Below are positions 3,395-41,129 of a stretch of 64,000 nucleotides of DNA, one piece after another (position 1 is the stretch's first letter; every line of letters begins with the position of its first letter). The translations under genes were made by a program, and so were the position numbers. A model generated the notes under the pieces. It ran no database searches, was not told the origin of the DNA, and saw nothing but the letters and a program-made list of their open reading frames with translations. This DNA is from a virus, in IMG/VR virus record IMGVR_UViG_3300012984_000014, positions 1-64,000 of that record; one strand, written 5' to 3'.

Positions 3395-3889
3395 ATGGAT
3401 CAGCGCACCATCACCTATGACACCATTGTACACAAGGCGAACCTTGCGCTGGCCAAAGGCGAATCGCTCAGCCAGTTCACGCAGAAGCTTCGCGAGGCAG
3501 CCAACAAAGCCATCGCACTGAAGCTCAATCTGACCGCCAAAAATTGCTCGACGTACATGGTCGAAACGTTCGCGGATTCGGCCATTTTTGATGTGACCAA
3601 GCGTCCGTTGGTAGATGGCGGGCCATATTCCTATGCGTATTACGCAATCAAGTATTCGCGCAAAGATGATGGCTCTTTCGAATTCAGCGATGCCACGGAA
3701 GTGGAGCGCGTCACATCTTTCCAGCCAAAAGCGCCGATGAGCGTGACCAAAGCCAAGAAGGGCTTGCTGGACGACGAAGACGATCTGGAAGACGAAGAGG
3801 ACGAAGAACTGTCCAAGAAGCCGATGAAGAAGGACGCCCCTCCCGGCTGGACCTACACAACCAAGAGCCTTTGGGGCGGACTGCTCTGA
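3395..3889 (+). CDS. Hypothetical head-region protein with acidic linker
   Basis: A 164-residue protein with a GGGAG ribosome site (in AAAAAGGGAGACATG). The N-terminal 45 residues are mostly helical (ANLALAKGESLSQFTQKLRE). A beta-rich middle follows (SYAYYAIKYSR, FEFSDATEVERVTSF). A short acidic stretch (DDEDDLEDEEDEEL) precedes a basic and hydrophobic end. No family is recognised. The context between an endolysin-like gene and small structural genes suggests a minor virion or assembly protein. Confidence 0.5.
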   Translation: MDQRTITYDTIVHKANLALAKGESLSQFTQKLREAANKAIALKLNLTAKNCSTYMVETFADSAIFDVTKRPLVDGGPYSYAYYAIKYSRKDDGSFEFSDATEVERVTSFQPKAPMSVTKAKKGLLDDEDDLEDEEDEELSKKPMKKDAPPGWTYTTKSLWGGLL

Positions 3890-35588: not shown

Positions 35589-37109
35589 GTGCTGCAACTT
35601 ACGCTGACCAACCGCAAACTGTACGTGGCCGGGGCCGACTCGGCCACGATTCGCGCGTTGGAAGAAGCGACAAGTTACACGGTGGCTGGTCACTACTTCT
35701 CGCCTGCGTTCAAGAACAAGCGCTGGGACGGGAAGGAGCACCTGCTCACACTTTCGCGTCACGCCGGCTACTACGTTCCGGCCGGACTGTATTGCGACGT
35801 CATCGCTGTGTTGCTTGGGCGCGGCGTCAAGTACAAGCTCGTGGACGAGACAGAGGTGCGCCACATTCCAACTCCGCTGGAGTGGAATGAGGCCATAGTT
35901 CTCCGAGAATACCAAGAGCGCGCGGTCAAGACGATTTTGAACGCTCGCTTCCACCCCGGAGTCGGGCTCCTGAAGATGCCGATCCGCTCGGGGAAGACGA
36001 AGACAGCGGCGCGCCTAATTGCCACCGTAGGGCTCCCGACTCTGTTCCTGGTGCCGAGCCAGATGCTGCTGCGTCAGACGTTCGAGGCGCTCACCGAGGC
36101 ACTGCCGTCAACGCACATCGGCATGATTGGTGACGGCGAGAACGAAGTTGGCTTCATCACCATCGCCACACTCCAATCGCTCGACCGCCTCCGGAACGGT
36201 GTTGTGCCGCGCCGGAAGCCGCGGAGGGGCGAGACCAAGGAGGAGGCCAAAGAGGCGGAGGCGGAGCGCCGCGCGAAGTCGAAGGTGATGAAGCGCCGCT
36301 ACAAGGAGCTGTGCGAGGCGTTCGACCTCGTGATCTGTGACGAGGCCCACCACATCCGTGGCCAGGGCGACTGGTACAAGATCATGTACGAGATGGACGC
36401 GCGGTACAAGGTCGGCCTTTCGGCGACGGCCTACCCGGAGAATCAGGACGAGGCGGAGCGCGGGATCATCTGGATGAAAGCGACGTGCGGTCCAATACGC
36501 ATTGACATCCCAACGTCGGAGCTGGTGGAAGCCGGCTTCCTGATGCGCCAGAACGTCTACATGGTCCGGATCACGAAGCCGAACCTGATGGGCCAGAGGT
36601 GGAGCAATACGCTCCGAGAACGCGCGATCACTCAGAACACGAAGCGAAACAAGGTCATCGCGCGTCTGGCCAAGAAGTTCATCGGCGAGGGTTTGAAGGT
36701 ATTGATTGTGGCCAATCGGTTCGATCACATCGCGTGTCTGGAGGAGGCGCTGGATGCGGATGGCGTCGACTACCGGATCGTCACCGGTCGTGACAATGCC
36801 GATTCGCGCCAGGAGAAGGTCGAGGGCTTCGTCAAGGGCGAGTACGGTGCGCTCATCGGGACGGTCTTGGGCGAGGGGGTAGACATCCCATCGGTCGATG
36901 TCGTGATCAATGCCGAGGGCGGGAAGGACGACAAGGCAACCGTCCAGCGCCAGAGGAATCTCACCATCAGCGCTGGGAAGACCAGAGCGATTCTTGTGGA
37001 CTTCTTGGATGAAACGAACGAGTATTTCAAGAAGCATTCGCATGCTCGCCTCGAAGCCTACCGTGCTGAGTCGTCCTTCAAGGTACGGATCGCCGGCTCG
37101 GAGCGCTGA
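35589..37109 (+). CDS. uvsW: UvsW-like superfamily-2 DNA/RNA helicase
   Basis: A 506-residue protein starting at GTG 35589. Residues 1-90 resemble the N-terminal domain of T4 UvsW-type helicases. Helicase motifs follow: LREYQERAVKTIL (Q-type), MPIRSGKTKTAARL (Walker A), VICDEAHHIRG (DEAH box), VGLSATAYPE (motif III), and later LIVANRFDHI, VTGRDNADSRQEKVEGF, LGTVLGEGVDIPSVDVVIN (motif V) and TVQRQRNLTISAGKT (motif VI). It would branch-migrate recombination intermediates and unwind R-loops, working with the RecA/SSB/SbcCD genes near the right end. Confidence 0.8.
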   Translation: MLQLTLTNRKLYVAGADSATIRALEEATSYTVAGHYFSPAFKNKRWDGKEHLLTLSRHAGYYVPAGLYCDVIAVLLGRGVKYKLVDETEVRHIPTPLEWNEAIVLREYQERAVKTILNARFHPGVGLLKMPIRSGKTKTAARLIATVGLPTLFLVPSQMLLRQTFEALTEALPSTHIGMIGDGENEVGFITIATLQSLDRLRNGVVPRRKPRRGETKEEAKEAEAERRAKSKVMKRRYKELCEAFDLVICDEAHHIRGQGDWYKIMYEMDARYKVGLSATAYPENQDEAERGIIWMKATCGPIRIDIPTSELVEAGFLMRQNVYMVRITKPNLMGQRWSNTLRERAITQNTKRNKVIARLAKKFIGEGLKVLIVANRFDHIACLEEALDADGVDYRIVTGRDNADSRQEKVEGFVKGEYGALIGTVLGEGVDIPSVDVVINAEGGKDDKATVQRQRNLTISAGKTRAILVDFLDETNEYFKKHSHARLEAYRAESSFKVRIAGSER

Positions 37110-37159
37110 GCGGCCCACGGGCCTAATTTGAGGTGTGCGGGGGACGAGGTAGGGAAAGC

Positions 37160-37425
37160 GGGGCGGGAATCCCCTTTGGATGATTATCGGGTCGGCCGTT
37201 AGGCCTGAAGCGGAAAACCGCTTAGTATGTGGATGCAGAGACGAAAAGTCCCGAGGCGAAAATGCCCGACCGCGGCGAAAAGTCTCGCCGAGCGCGCGGA
37301 TAAGCGCTAGGTTTCGTCGTTTCGAAACCCGACCGCCTCGCAACCGACGAGGCCCAAGCAGCCCGCCGTCCCCAAAGGATCGCGGGCTGTCCTTTTTACA
37401 GAGGCATGGAAGCGGAAAACCGCCT
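37160..37425 (+). ncRNA. Non-coding region packed with hairpins
   Basis: The 336 bases from 37110 to 37445 contain no convincing gene. Hairpins in order: GGGG/CCCC 37160-37174; GGCC/GGCC 37194-37205; AAGCGG-AAAA-CCGCTT 37208-37223; GAC-GAAAA-GTC 37240-37250; GGC/GCC 37255-37266; CGGCGA/TCGCCG 37273-37290; AGCGC/GCGCT 37291-37308; GGTTTCG/CGAAACC 37310-37329; GCCTCG/CGAGGC 37335-37353; the terminator at 37359; and a second GCGG-AAAA-CCGC at 37412-37423. The identical 14-mer AAGCGGAAAACCGC occurs at 37208 and 37410. It fits a structured phage RNA or a mRNA leader. I recognise no known RNA class. Confidence 0.5.
37359..37397 (+). terminator. Intrinsic terminator
   Basis: CAGCCCGC (37359-37366) pairs with GCGGGCTG (37382-37389) over eight GC-rich base pairs and is followed by CCTTTTT, a T5 run. 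This is the strongest intrinsic terminator seen in the window. It would end transcripts from the helicase gene and the hairpin array, leaving the 37410 hairpin and the winged-helix gene to a new or read-through transcript. Confidence 0.7.
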
Positions 37426-37445
37426 GGGAAAGATGGAGAGACACG

Positions 37446-37796
37446 ATGAACCTCGGCATGGGCAAACGACGATTCACCAAAAGCAAGGCGCACCCCGACG
37501 AGTTCCCTGGTCATGGGAACGTGGACCTGAACACCGCCTTCGAGGAGCTGAGCGCCTCCGCCTTCGCACTCTGGCTGCGCATCTCCGGCGAGCGTGAGGC
37601 GTTGGTAGAAGGACGGCGCGCCCTCGCCAAGCTCACCGGCTACAGCCAGCGCCGGATCGGCGAGCTTTTGCAGGAGCTAGAGCGCAAGGGTTATGTCGGT
37701 TTCGTCCCGGAGACTGGTCCAAGGCCCGATGGGATCGTGATCCACCGCCGCTGTGTCATCAGCCACCGCGCGGGCGTCGTCCGTCTCAGCGCTTAG
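37446..37796 (+). CDS. Winged-helix DNA-binding protein
   Basis: A 116-residue protein with GGAGAG upstream of ATG 37446. Residues 30-90 form a winged helix: FALWLRISGEREALVEGRR, then ALAKLTGYSQRRIGELLQEL (helix-turn-helix), then RKGYVGFVP (wing). Both ends are basic. It may regulate the adjacent replication genes or take part in replication initiation. A GCGGAAAACCGC hairpin lies just upstream (37412-37423) and is a candidate operator or RNA control site. Confidence 0.6.
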   Translation: MNLGMGKRRFTKSKAHPDEFPGHGNVDLNTAFEELSASAFALWLRISGEREALVEGRRALAKLTGYSQRRIGELLQELERKGYVGFVPETGPRPDGIVIHRRCVISHRAGVVRLSA

Positions 37797-37902
37797 AGCA
37801 TGACCAACCCTACTTTCCTTTGCATCGAATACTGATCAAAATCAGCATTCCAACGCACTTACCCAACCCAATTACCTTCTAACGATAGGAAGTCCAACAA
37901 AT
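37797..37902 (+). promoter_or_regulatory. AT-rich spacer before the candidate initiator gene
   Basis: This 106-base spacer is visibly more AT-rich than its surroundings. It holds an inverted repeat CTGAT-CAAA-ATCAG (37832-37845) and CCAAC pentamers at 37804, 37850, 37863 and 37894, with another at 37930 inside the gene. TAGGAAG (37886-37892) is the ribosome site for ATG 37903. Initiator binding or DNA unwinding would suit this layout. Confidence 0.4.
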
Positions 37903-39030
37903 ATGGCATCATCATCCGCCGCTAAGCAACCAACTTTCTACATCAACCCCGACTTCCGACGGAAGTTCATAGATGAGGAAAACTACATAGGCGGATGGGA
38001 GGAGTGCCAGGACGACAAGCCCAATAATCGTTGGAAGAAGGGGGAAGGGGAGGGGAACCTTATAGGAGGGGAGGGGAAGGGGGATGGCTCTCCAAGTAGG
38101 GGATCTATGATTAGGGAATCGTCCGAGCGAAGCGAGGACCAGGATGCCGAGCCGTCAAGAATTCGACTCGCCAAACCGGACAATTCCACTCAGGATGCTG
38201 CGCATCCTGCGCCGACGCGGCGGGTTGATATGTCGGCTATGCGAGCCGGGCGAGAGCAGATCAAAAAGCGAACTGCCAAAACGAACGCTGAGCATCGCAA
38301 ATTCGCCAAGGATCGTGTAGCAAAGAAGCCGATTGATTGGAGTCGGTTGGATCAAGTCGGGCGCCCGGTGGTCAGCTTCGACCCATTCCACGAAGACAGA
38401 CCGCGCGCCTTGCGAATCCTGGGAAGGGACGCCAGAGACCGTACACGCCAAGAGATCGTTCGCAAGTACGGCGTGGAATTCAGCCGTATTTATGTCAGGT
38501 ATCGTCGCGACGCCGAACGCAGGAAGACAGGAATCACGGCCCCGGACTACATGGTGCGCCACGAACGCGAGCAGAAAGCTTGCGAAGAAGCCGCGATCCA
38601 GTGTGTTCTCCGGGGAGTTACGCCACGCCAAGTCCTCGAATACTGGGACGCCAACATCAAGAACTACACAAACAATAATTTGACCATTCCCCCTTTGAAC
38701 TTTTTGAAGAGCGCGTCCGCGATTGATCGTGTGGCCTGCAGCGCGCTCGGGACCGTTGGGCGCATCGAGCGGACCAAGGCGGCTCCGGAAACCGTCAAGA
38801 TTAAGCCTGAAAACAGGAACACATTCAGCGGCGTTGGCGGCTTGGACATTAGACTCCGGCCGACCCTCGAAGCCGCCGGATTTGCGACCCAAGCCTACAA
38901 TGATCGTTACCTTCTGTCCATACAACACAATGCCTTGGCTGTTGCCGCGGGGAAATCCATATTTATGGCTGAAGGCCGCGTGCGAAACATGGTCAAGCAC
39001 GCCGCGAAATCGCTTTATAGTGGTAATTAA
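37903..39030 (+). CDS. Candidate replication initiator
   Basis: A 375-residue protein with no family I can name with certainty. Residues 45-70 are Gly/Glu/Lys repeats encoded by the mirror-repeat DNA. A basic linker (EQIKKRTAKTNAEHRKFAK) and a probable helix-turn-helix (DRTRQEIVRKYGVEFSRIYV) follow. The C-terminal half has short helices and LRPTLEAAGF. It directly precedes a DnaC-like loader and DnaB helicase, the place of lambda O or comparable initiators. The initiator role is inferred from position and DNA-binding character. TAGGAAG precedes the ATG. Confidence 0.45.
   Translation: MASSSAAKQPTFYINPDFRRKFIDEENYIGGWEECQDDKPNNRWKKGEGEGNLIGGEGKGDGSPSRGSMIRESSERSEDQDAEPSRIRLAKPDNSTQDAAHPAPTRRVDMSAMRAGREQIKKRTAKTNAEHRKFAKDRVAKKPIDWSRLDQVGRPVVSFDPFHEDRPRALRILGRDARDRTRQEIVRKYGVEFSRIYVRYRRDAERRKTGITAPDYMVRHEREQKACEEAAIQCVLRGVTPRQVLEYWDANIKNYTNNNLTIPPLNFLKSASAIDRVACSALGTVGRIERTKAAPETVKIKPENRNTFSGVGGLDIRLRPTLEAAGFATQAYNDRYLLSIQHNALAVAAGKSIFMAEGRVRNMVKHAAKSLYSGN
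38039..38084 (+). repeat. Purine mirror repeat with G-tracts
   Basis: AGGGGGAAGGGGAGGGGA (38039-38056) is followed by ten bases and then its exact mirror AGGGGAGGGGAAGGGGGA (38067-38084). One strand is nearly all purine, with six runs of four or five G. Such DNA can form intramolecular triplex (H-DNA) or G-quadruplex. It lies inside the candidate initiator gene and encodes only Gly, Glu, Lys and Asp linker residues. Confidence 0.7.
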
Positions 39031-39051: not shown

Positions 39052-39726
39052 ATGAGAACATTGGACGAATTGGAGCGATTCCAGCTCCAGATCAGCACGG
39101 AGCCAAAGGCACAAGAGCTGTTGGACTACTACAGCTCGTGCTACGAGGCTTGCATACCCAAGCTTTTCTGGGACGTCCAACGAACGGACGTGAGCCACAA
39201 CAAGGGCGCGTTCGACAAAGTCGTGGCGAAGTATTGCGCGAAGCGCAAGAAGGCGATGCGTCACGGGTACGGGTTGTTGTTCACCGGCGACAACGGTGTT
39301 GGCAAAACGATGTTCATCAGCTACATACTGACGCAAATGATCAAGCGCGGATGCAGCGTCTACTACACAACGCTTCCGCAGTTGGACATCGACATCAAGC
39401 GTGGGTTCAACGACCGCGAGATGGACAAACGCCTCACGCAGTACCTCGGAAGCGACTTCATTGCCGTGGATGAGCTTGGCAAGGAGCACTACAAGTCCGA
39501 GAGTTACCTGAACACGCGCTTCGAGCTTCTGCTCAAGACGCGGCACGACGACGGCGACCCGACGTTGCTGGCTTCAAATGTGGATTACGCGGCGCTTTGT
39601 GGAATCTATGGCGCTTCAATCCAATCCATGTGGGACGGACGCTATGTGGCTGTCGCCATGGAATCTGGCGACTTTCGCAAGACTCTCCAAGCGCGAGCCA
39701 AAAAAGACTTGGGGATCAAGATCTGA
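39052..39726 (+). CDS. DnaC-like AAA+ helicase loader
   Basis: A 224-residue protein. Residues 70-200 carry AAA+ motifs: GLLFTGDNGVGKTMFISYIL (Walker A), DFIAVDELGKEHY (Walker B with E), a sensor-like LLASNVDY and a late SMWDGRYVAVAMES. The N-terminal 60 residues have the helical look of DnaC/DnaI partner-binding regions. It ends in TGATG, overlapping the DnaB start, which couples loader and helicase in a fixed ratio. It would load the phage helicase on the origin. Confidence 0.75.
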   Translation: MRTLDELERFQLQISTEPKAQELLDYYSSCYEACIPKLFWDVQRTDVSHNKGAFDKVVAKYCAKRKKAMRHGYGLLFTGDNGVGKTMFISYILTQMIKRGCSVYYTTLPQLDIDIKRGFNDREMDKRLTQYLGSDFIAVDELGKEHYKSESYLNTRFELLLKTRHDDGDPTLLASNVDYAALCGIYGASIQSMWDGRYVAVAMESGDFRKTLQARAKKDLGIKI

Positions 39727-41129
39727 TGTTCGACGTCGAATTTGAACACGACATCGTTTGCTGCTCGCTCAAGGATGACCAGTTCATCAAGCGCGCGATC
39801 CGAATCTGCGACGTCCACCACTTCGGTTCCAAGGAGCTCTCTTGGATTTGGAAGGTGATCAGCGAAACCTGGAACGCCTTCAATGAGCGCCCGACGCCTC
39901 GGCTCATCACTGCCCGCGCCAAGGATGACTTTCCGGACGATGAGAAACGCAAGCCGTATCTCCAGCTGGCCCTCAAGCTGTTCAAGTCCAAGCCGACCGC
40001 TCCGAAGTCCGCCCTGGAAGAGTTGGGCAAGTTCGTTCGCCAAGTCAATCTTCAGCTCGCGCTCGAAGAGTCCGCCAAGCACCTGGAAAAGGGCAAGTTG
40101 GACGAGGCCGAGGCCGCACTGTACAAGTCCTCACGCATCGTCGTGGAGCGCAACTACACCCACATCGATTGGTGGAAGGACTTCGAGACGCGCCAGGCGG
40201 CCCGCAAGCACGAGCGCGAGCACCCCGAGGAGCACACGGTCATCCCCACCGGCTTGAAGACGCTCGACCGCGCGTTGGGTGGCGGATCTCGCAAGGGCGA
40301 GGTCGGGCTGATCATGGGAACGACTGGACGCGGCAAGTCGGTCCTGCTCTCCGGGATGTGCCACGCATCGATCGCGCGCGGGTTCAACGCCGTGTACTTC
40401 GCGTTGGAAATGCCCGCCAATCAGGTCGCCACGCGCGCGGACGCTCGTTGGTCCGGCATGAAGTACGACCAGTTCAAGAGCTTCGACTTCAAGCCAACCG
40501 AATTGCGAGAGCTCGAAGCGCGGCGGAAGCGCGGCGAGAAGCGACTGGCTGGAAAGTATCACATCCTGTCGATGCCAGTGAAGTCGGCTGACATCCGAAC
40601 GGTCAAGGCCGCACTCTCGGACCTTCGAGAGGAATTCGGGTTTGTGCCGTCGCTGGTAGCGGTGGACTCCGGCGACCACATGAAGAGCGTTGACCGGACG
40701 CTCGATCAGTACCGCCTCCAGCAGGCGGAGGTGTACTGGAGCCTCAAGCAGCTCGCAGAAGAAGAAGGCTATGTGCTTTGGTCGACGGTCCACGCCGGTC
40801 GTGAATGGGCAACGCAGATCGCGACCTCGGAGGCCACATCTGAGAGCTACGACAAGGCCCGCATTGCCGACCTGATCCTGTCCATCAACGACCCCAACGC
40901 CAAGCCGGGACGCCGTAAAAAGGCGATCGTTGCTGCGGACGACGACGACGAGGACGAGCCCGAGGAGGTCAAGACGGCTGACGCGGCCGAATCAGCGGCG
41001 CGGAAGCTTGAGCTGTATCTGGCCAAGTACCGTGATGGCGTGTCCAAGCTCAAAATCGAGTTGGACGCAGACTTCTCCAGGATGTTGTTGAAAGAGGTCT
41101 CCGAGACCACCGATGAGGCCGCAGAATGA
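39726..41129 (+). CDS. dnaB: Replicative DNA helicase, DnaB type
   Basis: A 467-residue protein from ATG 39726. The N-terminal 140 residues form a reduced DnaB-N-like helical domain. The RecA-like motor has TGLKTLDRALGGGSRKGEVG, LIMGTTGRGKSVLLSGM (Walker A), VYFALEMPANQVATRADAR, and SLVAVDSGDH (Walker B), then WSTVHAGREW. An acidic DDDDEDEPEE insert comes near residue 400, and VSKLKIELDADFSRM is the usual C-terminal strand end. It drives fork movement with the primase and DnaE encoded downstream. Confidence 0.85.
   Translation: MFDVEFEHDIVCCSLKDDQFIKRAIRICDVHHFGSKELSWIWKVISETWNAFNERPTPRLITARAKDDFPDDEKRKPYLQLALKLFKSKPTAPKSALEELGKFVRQVNLQLALEESAKHLEKGKLDEAEAALYKSSRIVVERNYTHIDWWKDFETRQAARKHEREHPEEHTVIPTGLKTLDRALGGGSRKGEVGLIMGTTGRGKSVLLSGMCHASIARGFNAVYFALEMPANQVATRADARWSGMKYDQFKSFDFKPTELRELEARRKRGEKRLAGKYHILSMPVKSADIRTVKAALSDLREEFGFVPSLVAVDSGDHMKSVDRTLDQYRLQQAEVYWSLKQLAEEEGYVLWSTVHAGREWATQIATSEATSESYDKARIADLILSINDPNAKPGRRKKAIVAADDDDEDEPEEVKTADAAESAARKLELYLAKYRDGVSKLKIELDADFSRMLLKEVSETTDEAAE

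Follow-up and report, generated by a model that had tools for sequence, protein, structure and literature searches.

What does the gap between the helicase gene and the replication genes of this phage contain, and does it act as RNA or as DNA? The window analyzed here covers bases 1 to 64,000 of a virus record of 116,461 bases. The first-pass annotation had singled out about 336 bases without a gene, standing between a helicase and the winged-helix/replication genes. Both points held up: the helicase gene ends at 37109, the winged-helix gene starts at 37446, and the interval from 37110 to 37445 is non-coding by codon score. The sole long frame in the gap (37180-37449, 89 amino acids) scored −0.306 per codon, like wrong frames (tested genes, +0.048 to +0.374), and a protein-coding gap was ruled out on this basis. 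The accompanying description of a genome almost without gaps was wrong, as many gaps of 100 to 460 bases are present. No tRNA genes were found in the 64-kb window.

With pairing limited to a span of at most 45 bases, the plus strand folds into ten to eleven consecutive local hairpins between 37159 and 37390, plus another at 37412-37423 (Table 1). Most of the array stems have mean pair probabilities of 0.7 to 0.98, and four of the hairpins carry loops of the A4 or GAAAA type, much as the first-pass annotation had described in its dense series of hairpins with A-rich GAAAA loops. Fold stability was compared with that of 200 dinucleotide shuffles. At the same span limit, positions 37156-37400 gave a z score of −3.4, with 0 of 200 shuffles as good, and the full fold gave −4.2; the array without its terminator (37188-37356) gave −3.7, again with 0 of 200 shuffles as good. 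The core thus beats shuffled sequence, a check on which the original proposal had been made to depend. The entire 336-base gap folds less impressively (z about −2.1 to −2.4), and the folding signal therefore sits in the core. Among the 969 windows of 240 bases on the plus strand of the whole 116,461-bp record, 37201-37440 ranked second for local hairpins (z −4.92); the first-ranked window falls inside a coding gene, and single-sequence energy comparisons of this kind do not prove function.

The unpaired bases of the array are A-rich on the plus strand (43 A and 20 T unpaired; 13 A and 21 T paired), which fits an RNA made from that strand and not plain double-stranded DNA sites. Three of the 13 perfect hairpins with A4 or GA4 loops in the record fall within 215 bases here. 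Rfam 15 returned no family at the gathering threshold for the array or for the corresponding gaps of relatives (best match 18.1 bits, threshold 70), consistent with an RNA that has not been described. The region had no DNA similarity to phages, plasmids or four relatives, and no published description of such a phage leader was found in the literature searched. Given the fold energy, the A-rich loops, the lack of an Rfam match and the structured gaps of about ten relatives, we conclude that the array is probably an undescribed structured RNA, and likely a regulatory one. This much of the first-pass proposal is supported; another of its suggestions, a part of the origin, is disfavored for reasons given below.

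Table 1. Features of the helicase–initiator gap and of the neighboring genes, in positions of the window.
Feature	Position	Strand	Basis or remark
UvsW-like/ResIII superfamily 2 DNA helicase gene	35589..37109	+	phrog_16 6.8e-67, PF04851 1.9e-21; syntenic in relatives
Non-coding gap, helicase to initiator, 336 bases	37110..37445	+	Codon score; relatives' gaps 0-248 bases
Promoter-like position of relatives (here TTTGAG-N17-TAGGGA)	37127..37155	+	Not significant here, p=0.87
Possible closing-helix 5′ strand GCGGGGCGG, partner CCGCCTCGC at 37333-37341	37158..37166	+	Minimum-energy fold of 37156-37400
Hairpin GGCC-GTTA-GGCC	37194..37205	+	Fold
Hairpin AAGCGG-AAAA-CCGCTT, 14-mer copy 1	37208..37223	+	Fold, repeat search
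Hairpin GTAT-GTGG-ATGC	37225..37236	+	Fold
Hairpin GAC-GAAAA-GTC, in tandem unit 1 (37238-37252)	37240..37250	+	Fold, repeats
Hairpin CGAGGCGAAAATGCCCG, tandem unit 2 (37253-37267)	37252..37268	+	Fold, repeats
Hairpin CGGCGA-AAAGTC-TCGCCG, tandem unit 3 (37272-37286)	37273..37290	+	Fold, repeats
Hairpin AGCGC-GCGGATAA-GCGCT	37291..37308	+	Fold
Hairpin GGTTTCG-TCGTTT-CGAAACC	37310..37329	+	Fold
Hairpin GCCTCG...CGAGGC	37335..37353	+	Fold
Intrinsic terminator CAGCCCGC/GCGGGCTG, loop CGTCCCCAAAGGATC, then TCCTTTTT	37359..37397	+	−20.7 kcal/mol
Hairpin GCGG-AAAA-CCGC, 14-mer copy 2, initiator 5′ untranslated region	37412..37423	+	Fold, repeat
Shine-Dalgarno GGAGAG, 5 bases 5′ of ATG	37435..37440	+	Sequence
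Winged-helix N-terminal half of putative replication initiator	37446..37796	+	PF13730 3.6e-5; AlphaFold winged-helix model
AT-rich stretch with GGGGAGGGGAA repeats, candidate origin	37800..38090	+	GC 0.42 at 37800-37899; relatives' iteron site; weak here
Putative initiator C-terminal half, separate gene, 375 residues	37903..39030	+	Alignment with relatives
DnaC-like helicase loader	39052..39726	+	phrog_50 2.2e-17
DnaB-like helicase, frame as listed; true start probably downstream	39597..41129	+	phrog_19 3.3e-57

The 14-mer that had been noted at both 37208 and 37410 is indeed identical at the two sites and lies within an exact 15-mer at 37207 and 37409, whose core (GCGGAAAACCGC) has no further copy in the whole record; the hairpin GAAGCGGAAAACCGCYTRG had no exact match in a scan of viral contigs. 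The 15-nt unit GAGACGAAAAGnCCC occupies 37238-37269 as a tandem repeat and recurs a third time at 37272. Because the three units stand in tandem or nearly so and keep an invariant core, CGAAAA, duplication probably produced part of the array. Elsewhere in the record, 84460-84960 (L003 460-960) is a stretch of about 500 bases, probably non-coding, with degenerate repeats of 11 to 24 bases rich in CGAAAAG and GGAATT. We considered it as a similar structured element and rejected it: the CGAAAAG motifs are alike, but there is no excess RNA structure.

The claim of a strong terminator closing the array was also confirmed. The hairpin at 37359-37389 has 8+4 bp and a predicted energy of −20.7 kcal/mol, is followed by the U-tract tail TCCTTTTTA, and the terminator ends 48 bases before the initiator ATG; our terminator scan of the window missed it, presumably from limits on loop and tail. 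Within the roughly 50 bases between terminator and start codon there is no recognizable promoter, so the initiator operon probably depends on read-through. Our preferred explanation, to which we assign a probability of about one half, is that the array is the structured 5′ leader, bearing a conditional terminator (attenuator), of the operon for the winged-helix initiator, the loader and DnaB. The case for a leader is built on the non-coding status of the gap, a fold beyond chance, the terminator-like end and the syntenic structured leaders of relatives. RNA polymerase would come in from the helicase gene, or start at a promoter immediately behind it; the resulting RNA would fold into the row of hairpins, and the polymerase would meet the intrinsic terminator about 50 bases 5′ of the initiator start codon. 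The frequency of read-through would set the amount of initiator and hence the timing and strength of phage replication, the array being the part of the leader that decides whether transcription terminates or continues, on the model of pT181 and pIP501. Transcription as one leader, conditional termination and the input to the switch are inferred; this input could be an antisense RNA, a protein on the repeated A-loop hairpins, or translation.

The plasmid initiators repC of pT181 and repR of pIP501 are controlled by leader attenuators, and their leaders, of about 320 bases, have a terminator-like repeat and a T-run just before the initiator start (PMC5703833). The phage resembles them in having a structured leader directly 5′ of a putative initiator gene and a terminator-like hairpin with a T-run just 5′ of the translation start (37359-37397). 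It differs in being a phage and not a plasmid, in its much denser row of small A-loop hairpins, and in the signals that would operate the switch: pre-emptor pairing with the 5′ arm of the terminator was not significant in this phage (p 0.37), nor was a promoter upstream of the leader (p 0.87) or a minus-strand, antisense promoter against it (p about 0.56), two tests that presuppose a promoter type from which that of the host may differ. In pSK41, the rep leader is likewise RNA-controlled, but no counterpart of the pSK41 antisense RNA was found here. The large ornate phage RNAs GOLLD and ROOL share with the array their non-coding nature, many hairpins, A-rich loops and occurrence in phage genomes, whereas the array has only about 240 bases, has no Rfam match, and lies near replication rather than tRNA genes. 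A test for crossing helices, or pseudoknots, found 9 of 40 shuffles as good as this leader, and the candidates CCTTTGG/CCAAAGG and GGGGACG/CGTCCCC were within chance (best p 0.08). The closing helix 37158-37166/37333-37341 is an alternative to the local hairpin 37335-37353 and alone is not significant.

Close relatives were found neither in viral contigs nor in genome contigs, the best DnaE identity being about 70%. Searches with the DnaE polymerase, loader and helicase returned about twenty distant relatives in viral contigs, and those covering the region keep the order UvsW-like helicase, gap, winged-helix initiator, DnaC-like loader and DnaB. In about ten of them, from a tested set that was small and internally related, the gap has significant RNA structure in sequences that cannot be aligned between phages (z −6.5 in L085, −4.65 in G001, −4.0 in L067, −3.8 in G002, −3.3 in G003 and −2.7 in both L070 and L071); the L064 gap is structured beyond shuffles to a lesser degree. 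A helicase tree grouped this phage with G002, G003, L085 and L064 (support 100/99), together with four phages that have no gap. The gaps of these four named relatives end in terminators, that of L064 being weak, and a terminator hairpin stands at the matching position in G002, G003 and L085, of the same clade, and also in L067 and L072. Alternative pairing between a pre-emptor and the terminator was supported in L064 (p 0.010) and G003 (p 0.025) among seven sequences tested, and a number of relatives have promoter-like sites directly 3′ of their helicase gene (combined p about 1e-5). In several relatives the gap is missing or unstructured, and the element is therefore dispensable in the group. 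In G002, the DECHH (Walker B) motif of the helicase gene (L020 428-2959) is the site of an intein-like insertion; the L070 helicase gene (7-2313) is broken at a similar point by about 1 kb. Several DnaE loci, L028-L033, have about 900 extra bases.

Crossing helices, scored by stacking energies only, beat shuffles in L066, L067, L070, L071 and L076 (0 to 2 of 100 shuffles), each with its own sequence; the geometry was also seen in L072 and G001, where it was not significant. L069 was left out of this count despite passing, because one of its helices involves copies of a 20-mer repeat. GTGTACCAAAAATGAGCCAC occurs three times between the helicase and initiator genes of L069 (4403-4500), once with a mismatch. 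The last arm of the crossing-helix leader of L066 covers the ribosome site. The structures of L066, L070, L071 and L076 are complex and have no T-run, and those of L066 and L070 end adjoining the ribosome site. With helices of 8 to 14 bp, the crossing-helix leaders of L067 (4108-4206), L070 (2381-2492), L071 (3458-3548) and L076 (3635-3730) may be better candidates than the array for a new class of RNA.

The protein encoded at 37446 was modeled by AlphaFold as a winged helix (pLDDT 76). Among the PDB fold matches of this model, all weak (E 0.007 to 0.09), are MarR-type regulators and the N-terminal domains of plasmid Rep proteins; the protein's domain, its neighbors and the iterons point to a replication initiator. 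Most relatives have the winged-helix and 375-residue parts in one protein of about 500 residues. The split at the end of the winged-helix domain is seen here (37446-37796 and 37903-39030) and in L066 (4607-4900). The relatives G002, G003, L060, L064, L070, L071 and L072 have iteron arrays within the initiator gene, between the two domains, with 9-mer repeat counts of 29 in G003, 21 in G002 and 36 in L072 against 0.3, 1.3 and 1.3 in shuffles. The arrays of G003 (CAGTCGGACTTTCCCAGG and variants, four times, L021 about 2910-2810, minus strand) and of G002 (CCAAAGTTTACACAGAC and variants, L020 about 3484-3570) are, judged from sequence, likely replication origins. In this phage, the GGGGAGGGGAA repeats at 37800-38090 are only marginally beyond shuffles. 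Iterons are absent from the relatives' gaps, and the only repeat of this sort in the gap studied here is the 15-mer, present twice. Since the iterons of several relatives are located within the initiator gene, the array is unlikely to be the origin, and the existence of gap-less relatives likewise disfavors that suggestion. In lambda O, too, the iterons are inside the initiator gene. RepA_N plasmids have the same arrangement (PMC5703833). Both RepA_N (pSK41) and lambda O resemble the present system in a winged-helix-type N-terminal domain as well as in the iterons of the relatives' initiator gene; the differences are that the initiator is followed here by a DnaC-like loader and DnaB, and that the iterons of this phage are weak.

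The main rival, a serious one although we hold it to be rather unlikely, explains the terminator and the fold by an independent small RNA (about 240 bases) that acts in trans, with the initiator expressed by read-through from the helicase gene. Such an RNA would be transcribed within or just before the gap, would be multi-branched, would end at 37397, and would target host or phage mRNA or serve as a protein decoy through its repeated A-loop hairpins. The terminator closing the array fits this picture, as do the full fold, which joins 37158-37166 with 37333-37341 into a closed multi-branch, the promoter-like site in front in relatives, and the resemblance of the tandem GAAAA units to repeated protein sites. 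However, no promoter was found in this phage, the second 14-mer copy is placed past the terminator, within the initiator leader, the L066 and L070 structures end near the ribosome site without a T-run, and the sequence is not conserved, whereas fixed targets in trans would predict conservation. We regard as unlikely that 37359-37389 is an ordinary terminator, closing the helicase operon and shielding the initiator operon from it, with the remaining hairpins incidental or only protecting the 3′ end of the RNA. Terminator hairpins do recur at this place in relatives, some of which manage without a gap; yet the array minus its terminator still exceeds 200 of 200 shuffles, the roughly 50 bases after the terminator leave no room for a recognizable promoter, and L066, L070, L071 and L076 have complex structure with no T-run.

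That the array acts as DNA, as part of an origin or as operators for the winged-helix 37446 protein, seems very unlikely. It adjoins the initiator genes, and its 15-mer is, as DNA, an inverted repeat in two copies that a winged helix might bind, but several relatives have iteron arrays inside the initiator gene, some lack the gap, the loops are A-biased on one strand, and no relative of the 15-mer turned up in viral contigs. The least credible account is lambda-like antitermination, with the tandem GAAAA 15-mers (37238-37286) as boxB-like sites for an N-like protein that would carry polymerase past the terminator and on to the replication genes, as in nutR. The lambda nutR boxB is 15 nt long, with a 5+5+5 layout and a GAAAA loop, forming a 5-bp stem with a GNRA-like pentaloop. 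The unit GAGAC-GAAAA-GTCCC has the same length and layout, occurs three times, and stands upstream of a terminator and then of initiator and loader genes, like the lambda right operon. Unlike in lambda, the units are tandem and imperfect, unit 1 keeping four of five boxB pairs and units 2 and 3 fewer. No boxA-like sequence with up to three mismatches was found on the plus strand of the gap, the overall count equaling chance expectation, and no N-like protein was identified, such proteins being too short and variable for profile search.

Returning to the attenuator leader, a wider proposal, which we consider unlikely, is that it belongs to a class of regulatory leader RNAs that evolve fast and are confined to this group of phages encoding DnaE. 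Members would consist of a hairpin array with a terminator or of a pseudoknot near the initiator ribosome site. Either the winged-helix protein of the phage itself or the state of infection would read the RNA, which would time the onset of replication. The timing of phage initiator expression is understood mainly for lambda and a few others. The array is a short, testable element, and if such a leader is kept in place but rewritten across distant phages, plasmid-style RNA control of initiators would operate in large phages as well.
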